47,248 nt of DNA from Acidobacteriota bacterium (GTDB taxonomy: Bacteria; Acidobacteriota; CAIWXX01). The stretch lies in NCBI GenBank assembly GCA_016191015.1, contig JACPPM010000180.1:1-47248 (forward strand), given 5' to 3'. A program made the translations under genes and the position numbers. Below are positions 22,815-44,067 of the stretch, one piece after another (position 1 is the stretch's first letter; each line of letters opens with the position of its first letter). The notes below the pieces were generated by a model. It was not told where the DNA came from and made no database searches. It worked only from the letters and a program-made list of their open reading frames with translations.

Positions 22815-22860
22815 TGGTGGGTTGCAACCGGTCGCGCCCTCCGGGGGCATGACGGTCCTA

Positions 22861-23038
22861 GGGCAAGGCTGCGGCAAAGTCACATCCGCGGCCCGTTCTG
22901 ATCAATTCGTACCCGTACCCGTTCCCGTACCCCTACCAGAAATGCCTGATTCCGGGTACGGGTACAGGTACGGGTACCGGCATTCGGCCTCGGTGCGGAA
23001 CGGTGATGGGCGGATTTCGGGACTTCGCCACAGCCCTC
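22861..23038. repeat. Dispersed repeat copy B: same ends, different hairpin words, inverted orientation
   Basis: The left end GGGCAAGGCTGCGGCAAAGTC (22861-22881, written here split as GGGCAAGGCTG and CGGCAAAGTC) matches the right end of copy A reversed. The right end GGGACTTCGCCACAGCCCT (23019-23037) matches copy A's left end reversed. Internally, arms of repeated GTACCC words (22909-22938) and GGGTAC words (22953-22979) form a hairpin unrelated to the CGCAGATT words of copies A and C. The 22736-23257 gap otherwise holds the operon leader, a one-armed repeat and the integrase upstream region. Confidence 0.8.
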
Positions 23039-23110
23039 GTCCTGGGGTCGGTCGCATTGACGTCCGGCGCGCGGCGGAGATAGGGAGCGACTGGAAATCG
23101 TGACCCATCA

Positions 23111-23148
23111 CCACGGAGGCACGGAGAGCACGGAGATCCACGGAGACC
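23111..23148. repeat. Single-armed ACGGAG short tandem repeat
   Basis: Four ACGGAG units begin at 23113, 23121, 23130 and 23140, spaced 8-10 bases apart. I find no complementary arm nearby. It resembles one arm of the hairpin repeats elsewhere in the window and stands at the left edge of the integrated element. Confidence 0.6.
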
Positions 23149-33929: not shown

Positions 33930-34018
33930 TGGTGCCGGGGGCGGGGATCGAACCCGCACGGGCCTTGCGGCCCACGGGATTTTAAGTCCCGTGCGTCTGC
34001 CAACTTCGCCACCCCGGC
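33930..34018 (-). tRNA. tRNA-Leu (anticodon UAA)
   Basis: On the minus strand the acceptor stem GCCGGGG pairs with CCCCGGC, followed by discriminator A and an encoded CCA (33930-33932). The anticodon loop CTTAAAA gives anticodon UAA. The TTCGATC T-loop and a long variable arm (GGGCCGCAAGGCCC) mark a class II leucine tRNA of 86 bases plus CCA. Its 3' end faces the accessory region. Confidence 0.95.
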
Positions 34019-40970: not shown

Positions 40971-41016
40971 CACCGTGACGGAGCCCGGCAGAATCGAGGG
41001 GCGGCAGTTTTCAGGC

Positions 41017-41230
41017 AGGGCTGTGGCAAAGTCGAGGCGCCGACTCGGGCGAGGCCGTTCCGTGCGAAACCGCAGATGGCGCAGATTTCCGCGCAGATTA
41101 CGCAGCTACTTCCAGCATTCAACCGACGAGCAACTTGCTCCTCGCTCCCGGGTCGGCGCGAAGCAATCGGCGACATCTGCGAGTCAATCTGTGAAATCTG
41201 CGGTTTCCGGGACTTTGCCGTAGCCTTGAG
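41017..41230. repeat. Dispersed repeat copy C
   Basis: The left end is AGGGCTGTGGCAAAGTC (41017-41033); the right end is GGGACTTTGCCGTAGCCTTG (41209-41228). The interior follows copy A word for word except for scattered substitutions and one single-base gap, including the CGCAGATT words and their complements. It lies between the convergent acetyltransferase and glycosyltransferase genes, ending about four bases before the latter's stop. Confidence 0.88.
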
Positions 41231-41233
41231 TTT

Positions 41234-43129
41234 TCAGGGTCCGGGCTGGGAATCCCGGTTGCGGCCGGTGAATTTCACGTAGACCCCGAGGTACCTGGGC
41301 TCTTCCATCGCGGGGATGGTGAGGCGCGGAGCGGCCCCGATGGCGCACTCGATCGAGAGCAGATAGTGGTGGCCCCACTCAGCATATTGCCCTTCGACTG
41401 GCAGCTCGAAAAAGACAGATTCGTGGGCCGGGACGGTCACGACTTTTTCGCCGCCGCCCGCCGACAGCCGCACGGAGTTCTCGACGAACGAGTGGAGCTC
41501 GAAGTTGAGAGAGGAGAGCGGCTTCCAGGTCGAGACCAGTATCTCCGCTCGCTTGTTCCCGTACACCCAGATCCCACCCGCCTCCGGGGCCGATGCGTTC
41601 TCATCCAGGAACGAGACACGAAGTGCCGGGTCCTCTCCTCCGTAGGGTACCCTCGCCCGGCCCTGATTCAGCTGGACCGGGAGGTCGTTGGGCATGGTCA
41701 GCTCGACCGGCAGGAGCCGTAACAGGCCGTTTTGTGGGTTCATCCAGGTCATCGCAGACGAGTAGAACGGGTTGATGATCATGTGGGCAAGGAACATTGC
41801 TCCGCCGACAGCCGCGATCAGTGACGGATAGGCCGTCCGTAAGGGTGGCACGAGGAAAAGCATGACAGCATACCCCGGCAGGAAATACCTGTTTCCCGGC
41901 TGCCCGCCACCGCCTGCCCAGTTGCGGACCATCCAGAGAAGAGAGAAGAGTGCGGTCCCGGCCACACCACCAAGCGCGAAAACACGCCAGCAGTCACGCC
42001 TCGCCGGGGAGCGAAGCCATAGCAACATCGCAACCACAGCAGGGAAGAAATAGGGAATCAGTCCCGCGTGCCTTCCGACGAAGAAGTACATTGTGTTTCG
42101 TGCAAGCTGGGGAAGGAACACCCCTTTTTCGAACATCGACTCGGTCTCGAAGCGGTTCGTAGTCAGCGACGTGCCGCAATCCTCGAAGCCCAGATCGGGC
42201 GTCTGGAAGGGCCAGGTTCCATAAAAAGTCCGCCGATCGCCGCCCTGGTAGTTGATCTCGCCGGTGACGACCGCGTTGAGGCCGAAGAGCGCAGCGATGA
42301 CGAACGCGTAGACGCAGCCGAGACGGAAGCCGGCGGGCCACCGGCGGCGCCAAAAATGAGTCAGGATCGGCGGTGCGCCGAGGAGGATGAAAATGGGCTT
42401 CGAGTACACGGCGAGCCCGAGAAGAAATGCGGCGAAGATGTCGGACGCGGGTGATCGCAGGAATCGAGCCCATCGGCCGGGGGCCGACGGGGCGAGCTCC
42501 TTGTAGAGCCAGAAGAAGTATCCGAAGAGCACCATGCAGAAGATGAAGAAGTCAGAGTATAGCCGGACCACGTAGAGCGGGACGACCGACATGAAAAGGA
42601 AGGCCAGAGTGAAGAGGCGAGCGGCCCGAGGCTCGGAGCGTGCGGACAGAAACGCATTGGCCGCGAGAAAACAGCCGGCTAGCAGGAAGGCGTGGAAGAC
42701 GAAAAAGCCCCTGAGACCGGCGAGGCGAACGAAGGGGGCTGCCGCGACCGGGTAGCTGAAGGCCTTGCCGAAGTACAGACGGTCGTCACGTCGATCAGGC
42801 CGTTTGTCGATCTTGAGAAACGGCCAGCCCCCTTGCAAATCGAGATGGATCTCCTTCCCCCGCTTCAGGAAAATGCCCTCGGGACCCCAGGAGTACAGGC
42901 TCCAGTACCGCAGGATGTCCCGGCGTTCGTAGACGAGGTCCCCATCCGCGGCAGCACTGAGCCCCATCATGATGTACGTTGATTCGTCTCCTCGCAGCCC
43001 GAACCCCGTGCGTACCGGATCGATCGAAAACGACGCCGAGATTCCGCCGACAAGGATGATGGCGGCCGTGACGAGCCCGCCACGCCACGCCGGCGTGGGG
43101 GCGATCGCGCTGACTTCGTCTTCCTTCAT
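41234..43129 (-). CDS. GT39-like polytopic glycosyltransferase, paralog 2
   Basis: 631 residues from ATG 43129, which overlaps the hydrolase stop by four bases (ATGA); ATG 43144 would add five residues. The organisation matches paralog 1: GDESTYIMMGLSAA with the acidic pair, roughly ten membrane segments, NWAGGGGQPGNRYFLPGY and a beta-rich C-terminus. The two genes probably descend from a duplication and may transfer different sugars or use different acceptors. Confidence 0.88.
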   Translation of the reverse strand: MKEDEVSAIAPTPAWRGGLVTAAIILVGGISASFSIDPVRTGFGLRGDESTYIMMGLSAAADGDLVYERRDILRYWSLYSWGPEGIFLKRGKEIHLDLQGGWPFLKIDKRPDRRDDRLYFGKAFSYPVAAAPFVRLAGLRGFFVFHAFLLAGCFLAANAFLSARSEPRAARLFTLAFLFMSVVPLYVVRLYSDFFIFCMVLFGYFFWLYKELAPSAPGRWARFLRSPASDIFAAFLLGLAVYSKPIFILLGAPPILTHFWRRRWPAGFRLGCVYAFVIAALFGLNAVVTGEINYQGGDRRTFYGTWPFQTPDLGFEDCGTSLTTNRFETESMFEKGVFLPQLARNTMYFFVGRHAGLIPYFFPAVVAMLLWLRSPARRDCWRVFALGGVAGTALFSLLWMVRNWAGGGGQPGNRYFLPGYAVMLFLVPPLRTAYPSLIAAVGGAMFLAHMIINPFYSSAMTWMNPQNGLLRLLPVELTMPNDLPVQLNQGRARVPYGGEDPALRVSFLDENASAPEAGGIWVYGNKRAEILVSTWKPLSSLNFELHSFVENSVRLSAGGGEKVVTVPAHESVFFELPVEGQYAEWGHHYLLSIECAIGAAPRLTIPAMEEPRYLGVYVKFTGRNRDSQPGP

Positions 43130-44067
43130 GGGTTCATCAACCATCGGTCGATCGATGCCGCGAGGTCCTCGACAATCGACTCCCTGAACTGATCCGCCGG
43201 CCGTGGCCCACGCCAGAGCCGTCGAGTCCCGTAGAAGTGCTCGGCTCCCTCGATAGCGACGTACTCTTTCGGTCCCTGAATCTTCTCGTACAGATCCTTG
43301 AGAAATTGCCTGTCCTCAGGCCGTTCCTGAGCGCCCTCGACGAAAAGAACCGGGACGTGAACAGGGTGCTCGAGTAGCACGTCCGGCACAAGCTCCCGCA
43401 TCACCGGGTAGAGAATCTCCCTCGGGAGCCCCTCCGGGAGCCTCATCGCATACTCGATCATGTCCTCCAGTGCCTCCTCGTTCTTCGCGTCCTCCCCCAG
43501 ATGCAACTCGAGGCTGCGCCGGGGCGGAGAGATCGCCACGACCTTTCGGACGCGAGAATCGTCCAGGGAGTATCTGATTGCCACCCCGGCCCCGAAAGAA
43601 TGACCTACGAGATACAGCTGTTCACGATCCACGCCGGGTTGAGACAGCAGGTGGCCGACGGCCTGCCTCAGGTCCCCGAGAAAATCGAGGTCGTCGGGCG
43701 AATCGACTTGGGGTGGATCGGAGGACCTGCCGAAGCCGCGAAAATCGAAAGCAAGAACGGGGTAGCCACGGGCGGCGAGTTTCTGACAGAGCACGACGTA
43801 CAGGGTTTGATTGCACCCGAAAATCGAACGGCCGTGGGCAAAGACGACGGCGGGGTGAGCGACATTCTGTTTCGGAAGATAGAGGGCCCCGCGTAAGTCG
43901 AGTGTCCCGCTTTTGAATTCGGTGCGCCGCGTCGTGAAGGATGGGGCGGGCTCTCGAGGTGCGGGTGCAGGGTCATCCTGGATTCGCCGATCTGCGAGGA
44001 GAAAGAAGATTGCGGTGCCAGTTCCCCCGAGGAAAACAAGAACCGCCAGGATCCACGGCCATCTCAT
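43126..44067 (-). CDS. Membrane-anchored alpha/beta hydrolase
   Basis: 313 residues. An N-terminal membrane segment (about 4-24) anchors the enzyme, with the hydrolase fold outside. The nucleophile elbow is GHSFG (155-159, Ser157), with a likely Asp in FVEGAQERPED and a His in IEGAEHFYG. It hydrolyses an ester or similar bond; specificity is unknown. It is translationally coupled to glycosyltransferase paralog 2. Confidence 0.88.
   Translation of the reverse strand: MRWPWILAVLVFLGGTGTAIFFLLADRRIQDDPAPAPREPAPSFTTRRTEFKSGTLDLRGALYLPKQNVAHPAVVFAHGRSIFGCNQTLYVVLCQKLAARGYPVLAFDFRGFGRSSDPPQVDSPDDLDFLGDLRQAVGHLLSQPGVDREQLYLVGHSFGAGVAIRYSLDDSRVRKVVAISPPRRSLELHLGEDAKNEEALEDMIEYAMRLPEGLPREILYPVMRELVPDVLLEHPVHVPVLFVEGAQERPEDRQFLKDLYEKIQGPKEYVAIEGAEHFYGTRRLWRGPRPADQFRESIVEDLAASIDRWLMNP

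Follow-up and report, generated by a model that had tools for sequence, protein, structure and literature searches.

Introduction

Shared ends around differing hairpin middles are a familiar pattern for non-autonomous transposons (MITEs). Bacterial examples include MITEPye1, which has IS1182-type ends and occurs at 1–3 copies per chromosome (PMC11578231), and MITEAba12 (PMC6382973). The element analyzed below resembles both in its small size, its lack of an open reading frame (ORF), its IS-like terminal inverted repeats, its target duplications and its hairpin potential. It differs in its ISAs1-type ends and duplication length and in carrying two unrelated interiors under one end set; it is also present at more than 100 sites in its host genome, as opposed to the 1–3 copies of MITEPye1 (PMC11578231).

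The closest insertion sequences are those of the ISAs1 type, whose ends measure 14–22 bp and start with CAGGG, and which generate 10-bp duplications (PMC11946415). The present element shares the CAGGG start, with CAAGG at one of its ends, and the 10-bp duplications (PMC11946415), and the matching elements of related genomes encode a transposase composed of DDE_Tnp_1_assoc and DDE_Tnp_1. By contrast, it is geneless and only 122–217 bp long, the matching transposases add a DruA domain, and the host lacks an intact one. A further likeness is to REP/REPIN sequences with RAYT, in which short conserved inverted end pairs likewise surround a variable middle at high copy number; the element described here is distinct in having target duplications, no Y1_Tnp linkage and ends that match a DDE transposon.

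The window is a stretch of 47,248 nucleotides that constitutes contig 132 of an acidobacterial assembly of 6.43 Mb in 349 contigs. An earlier note had described three copies of a repeat in it (A, B and C) with fixed ends and exchangeable hairpin interiors. Our analysis identifies a new ISAs1-type MITE family, which is a known kind of element and is well supported. The statistics are based on about 1.2 Mb of host DNA together with element-centred loci, and 149 related genomes, of which G001 is the only one of the same family as the host and none belongs to its genus, were searched for the ends. The 64 collected copies are a biased sample, since members of the second class were fished with copy B as probe.

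Paired ends across the host genome

The element has the structure 5'-CAAGGCTACGGCAAAGTC…GACTTTGCCGCAGCCCTG-3' and is delimited by 18-bp terminal inverted repeats that face inward. These repeats are of ISAs1 type in length and start, with CAGGGCTGCGGCAAAGTC at one end and CAAGGCTACGGCAAAGTC at the other. The degenerate end 15-mer GGCTRYGGCRAAGTC has 243 matches in the genome (124 + 119), as compared with a single match of its reversed control, and the full 18-base end CARGGCTRYGGCRAAGTC has 208 matches as compared with none for the control. Most end pairs in the host genome face inward and bound a 213-bp unit, which is also the predominant size of an element that, being multicopy and without genes, falls within the range of about 100–500 bp typical of MITEs. 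Of 47 exact pairs that combine the two kinds of tip in a single end orientation, 45 have a gap of 151–181 bases.

Contig ends fall inside the element at several contigs. Copy A is among these cases and starts at base 1 of the window because several contigs begin or end in an element copy. The element is thus a high-copy repeat that breaks the assembly, and its identity as a MITE explains the repeat.

Copies A, B and C in the window

All three copies are present in the window, which confirms the earlier observation, with borders corrected to 1–211, 22,864–23,038 and 41,016–41,228, respectively. Copy A (minus strand) belongs to class 1, which carries CGCAGATT words; its first base is cut off at the contig start, its ends lie at 3–17 and 194–208, and its inner word hairpin (52–188) is formed by arms 52–92 and 148–188, which are 80% complementary. 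Copy C (minus strand) is a complete class 1 element of 213 bp, in which the arms of the inner word hairpin (41,066–41,207) occupy 41,066–41,103 and 41,170–41,207 and are 79% complementary. It is flanked on both sides by a perfect 10-bp target duplication, AGTTTTCAGG, at 41,006–41,015 and 41,229–41,238 (plus strand). The ORF at 41,234–43,144 (minus strand) kept its stop after the insertion of copy C, because the right-hand duplication contains its TGA.

Copy B (plus strand, 175 bp) belongs to class 2, which carries GTACCC words, and its tips have the opposite arrangement, with respect to the interior, to those of most class 2 members. Its left terminal inverted repeat, CAAGGCTGCGGCAAAGTC, lies at 22,864–22,881 (plus strand) and its right one, GAGGGCTGTGGCGAAGTC when read from outside inward, at 23,021–23,038 (minus strand). 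Between them, GTACCC words form an inner hairpin (22,909–22,977) with arms 22,909–22,932 and 22,954–22,977 that are 92% complementary. The flanking 9-bp target duplication, GTCCTAGGG at 22,855–22,863 and GTCCTGGGG at 23,039–23,047 (both plus strand), has one mismatch. This duplication, together with about ten near-full-length relatives of copy B that were found by blastn and have the same ends, disposes of the concern that the ends of copy B are chance matches. The whole elements are predicted to fold nearly end to end, with energies of –111, –91 and –102 kcal/mol for A, B and C, respectively.

The earlier observation that the window holds no transposase stands for the types represented by PF01797, PF13808 and PF14236, all genome matches of which lie off the window's contig. 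A reading of the repeats as an RNA family was rejected, the sole Rfam match in the window being a tRNA; this tRNA gene is located at 33,933–34,018 on the minus strand. At 23,110–23,147, some 70 bases beyond the right border of copy B, lie CACGGAG words (ACCACGGAGGCACGGAGAGCACGGAGATCCACGGAG) that belong to another word repeat with few matches in the sampled genome.

Target duplications and empty sites

An abutting target duplication of 8–10 bp with at most one mismatch is found at 41 of the 64 copies, while random re-pairing of the left and right flanks of the same copies (1000 trials) gave a mean of 0.75 and a maximum of 6. Flank identity peaks at 10 bp, which is the most frequent duplication length among the 64 copies, and the direct repeats of 8–10 bp are those characteristic of ISAs1; about one third of the sampled copies have no clean duplication.

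Empty sites were sought by comparing the sampled host DNA with the fused flanks of every copy. For the class 2 copy L041, uninterrupted repeats were found at L143 and L219 (85–86%), and for the class 1 copy L075 at L057, L059, L217 and others (78–85%). These repeats cross the respective junctions directly with a single target sequence, and they are paralogous, not orthologous, to the interrupted sites. Together with the end pairing, the duplications and empty sites therefore establish the element as a non-autonomous transposon. The repeats that served as targets of L041 and L075 constitute a third word-palindrome family (CACAGAAGGCACAGAACGCGCAAA and TTTTGTGCGTTTTGTGGTG words), with members at L217 (10456–10600), L057, L059, L143 (6069–6350) and L219 (14649–14874). 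We also considered gene interruption, for which long ORFs across the joined flanks were counted at 26 of the 64 copies, and dropped it as uninformative in a GC-rich genome without a null.

Two subfamilies under one set of ends

The collected copies fall into two classes. Class 1, to which A and C belong, comprises 55 of the 64 copies (median pairwise identity 94%), and class 2, represented by B, comprises the remaining 9 (median 82%), with lengths of 122–181 bp, a spread that results from differing numbers of six-base units. Class 2 is the older subfamily. Both classes have the 18-bp ends in common, and on one side the similarity continues, with some differences, for about 13 subterminal bases (CCCGGAAACCGC in A and C versus CCCGAAATCCGC in B). 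The interior of copy B had been described as having no similarity to those of A and C, which is correct for the arms and core but not for these subterminal bases. Likewise, the term 'exchangeable' is too strong for the interiors, as the two subfamilies are stable and none of the 64 copies looks like a recombinant of class 1 and class 2.

The inverted orientation of the ends of copy B, also reported previously, is common to three class 2 copies (B, L037 and L038); in the remaining six, the outer tips stand the other way round with respect to the interior. Either a few point changes or an inversion or conversion involving the two inverted ends could account for this difference.

The unrelated arms and core of A and C versus B, and the different median identities of the two classes, could be taken to mean that the classes are separate, unrelated MITE families, each with its own transposase, whose ends have converged. 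We regard this as very unlikely, given that the 18-bp ends are nearly identical, that the shared sequence extends over the subterminal bases at one end, and that the duplication has the same length in both classes.

Alternatively, the element might be a modular repeat that does not transpose and in which replication slippage or template switching builds the hairpin core on site. Such a process would fit the variable number of GTACCC-type units in class 2 and the occurrence of CGCAGATT-word hairpins in other frames. It is nonetheless highly improbable as an account of the family, as the duplications, the paralogous empty sites and the near-identical 213-bp copies at unrelated sites show insertion of the whole unit in one piece; slippage may have tuned the unit number within class 2. 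The earlier suggestion that the core is generated by replication or recombination is accordingly not supported in that form. The CGCAGATT-word arms do occur outside the element and may have been acquired by the MITE.

Transposons with matching ends in related genomes

Among the 149 related genomes, the exact ends were found only in G001. An 848-bp element in that genome (L102, 1501–2348) has both ends identical to those of the host MITE at 18 of 18 positions. The start of its 160-aa ORF matches the N-terminus of a DruA–ISAs1 transposase and the remainder matches the C-terminal end; the ORF thus joins N- and C-terminal transposase parts, and the element is therefore an internally deleted transposon. 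A second, shorter element of G001 (L106, 1352–1519) has nearly the same ends at left and right around yet another hairpin interior, the third and unrelated to the other two, with no clear duplication.

DruA–ISAs1 genes between CAGGG-like ends with 10-bp duplications were found in four other genomes of the phylum. In G063 (L129), the ends CAGGGCTACGTCAAAGTC and CACGGATACGTCAAAGTA and the 10-bp duplication CTCTACCTAT enclose a 479-aa frame with DruA, PF13808 (DDE_Tnp_1_assoc) and DDE_Tnp_1 domains (Pfam), and the transposase continues in another frame. The elements of G391 (L232), G289 (L228) and G321 (L235) carry DruA–ISAs1 genes and 10-bp duplications, and their ends are CAGG-type or related. 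The G321 gene consists of a single intact frame of 613 aa, and copies of this element are 98–100% identical, which suggests that it was active recently. The properties of these elements agree with the published ends and duplications of ISAs1 (PMC11946415). By comparison, the classical ISAs1 genes without DruA in G001, G007, G050 and G062 showed no matching ends within 4 mismatches.

A complete matching transposase was not found in the host genome, which has no PF13808 match and contains fragments only. These are a DruA fragment between degenerate related ends on C209 and a DDE fragment on C280; a standalone DruA gene on C343 is unlinked, with no such ends nearby. The pair of DDE_Tnp_1_assoc and DDE_Tnp_1 is present in the relatives' elements, absent from the MITE and not complete in the host, and we therefore classify the MITE as an ISAs1 derivative rather than an ISAs1 insertion sequence. 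Past the ends, no similarity between the interior and any parent element was detected. Judged from the sequences of the ends, the likely parent of the MITE would be an ISAs1-type transposon with a DruA-like transposase domain.

We rejected as extremely improbable the reading of the copies as REP/REPIN-type palindromes moved by a RAYT (IS200-like HUH) transposase. The short palindromic units, their high copy number and five Y1_Tnp matches in the genome would fit it, but the Y1_Tnp genes that were checked have no ends within about 1.5 kb, the copies show 8–10 bp target duplications, which HUH/RAYT movement is not known to make, and in G001 a DDE transposase fragment lies between identical ends.

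DruA is a component of the Druantia phage-defence system. In the elements at L129 (850–2289), L235 (1174–3015), L232 and L228, DruA (PF14236) is fused or adjacent to an ISAs1-type transposase within 10-bp duplications, an arrangement suggesting that transposons are a native setting of DruA; as a transposase domain, it bears on where the Druantia defence protein came from. A search of our paper library returned no description of DUF4338/DruA in ISAs1 transposases and no paper on ISAs1-type MITEs in Acidobacteria.

A model for mobilization in trans

We conclude with high confidence that the three copies are MITEs, probably mobilized in trans by an ISAs1-type DDE transposase with a DruA-like N-terminal domain. 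The first of the two readings offered by the earlier note, a non-autonomous mobile element, is thereby upheld by the terminal inverted repeats, the 8–10 bp duplications, the paralogous empty sites and the matching ends on DruA–ISAs1 transposons in relatives. In our model, the transposase would have bound the ends of about 18 bp, excised or copied the element and inserted it via a staggered cut of about 10 bp. As recognition would select the ends only, two lineages with unrelated palindromic cores could have been propagated by one enzyme. Exchange need not be invoked to explain the unrelated interiors, because any DNA between recognized ends can be moved, and transposase end sequences can thus carry unrelated palindromic cores. 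The family is probably idle at present, since the host holds transposase fragments only, unless an intact gene sits in an assembly gap.

CGCAGATT-word palindromes beyond the element

In the host, CGCAGATT words are strongly associated with the element, 70 of the 76 two-word matches lying near an element end. A second repeat family of the host (L139, L142, L215 and L224), whose flanks are quite different, contains them as well. Members of this family at L139 (19419–19661), L142 (118–377), L215 (3609–3839) and L199 (9134–9321) have the flanks TTACCAACATGTTGTCAGA, and family members are 77–84% identical to the L139 copy. Doubled CGCAGATT words were further found in 18 of 395 other sampled genomes of the phylum, without the ends described here. 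The doubled GTACCC-type pattern was found in the host only. At many of the inspected CGCAGATT sites in other genomes, the words form palindromes whose loops are unrelated; at some, they stand on one side only or may be coding. A search of the paper library returned no paper on CGCAGATT palindromes.

Given the second host family and the other genomes, the class 1 core looks like a widely distributed palindromic module contained in the MITE. It is conceivable, though we consider it rather doubtful, that the CGCAGATT palindrome is an independent module that is moved or copied between unrelated frames, including the ISAs1-type MITE and the second repeat family. If so, the MITE would be one of several vehicles for a self-propagating or functionally selected hairpin. 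The CGCAGATT-word palindromes at L258–L286 in other Acidobacteria are often bounded by ATCCGCAGATT and AATCTGCGGAT, and in a few of the 18 genomes the CGCAGATT matches reach ten to thirty-six.
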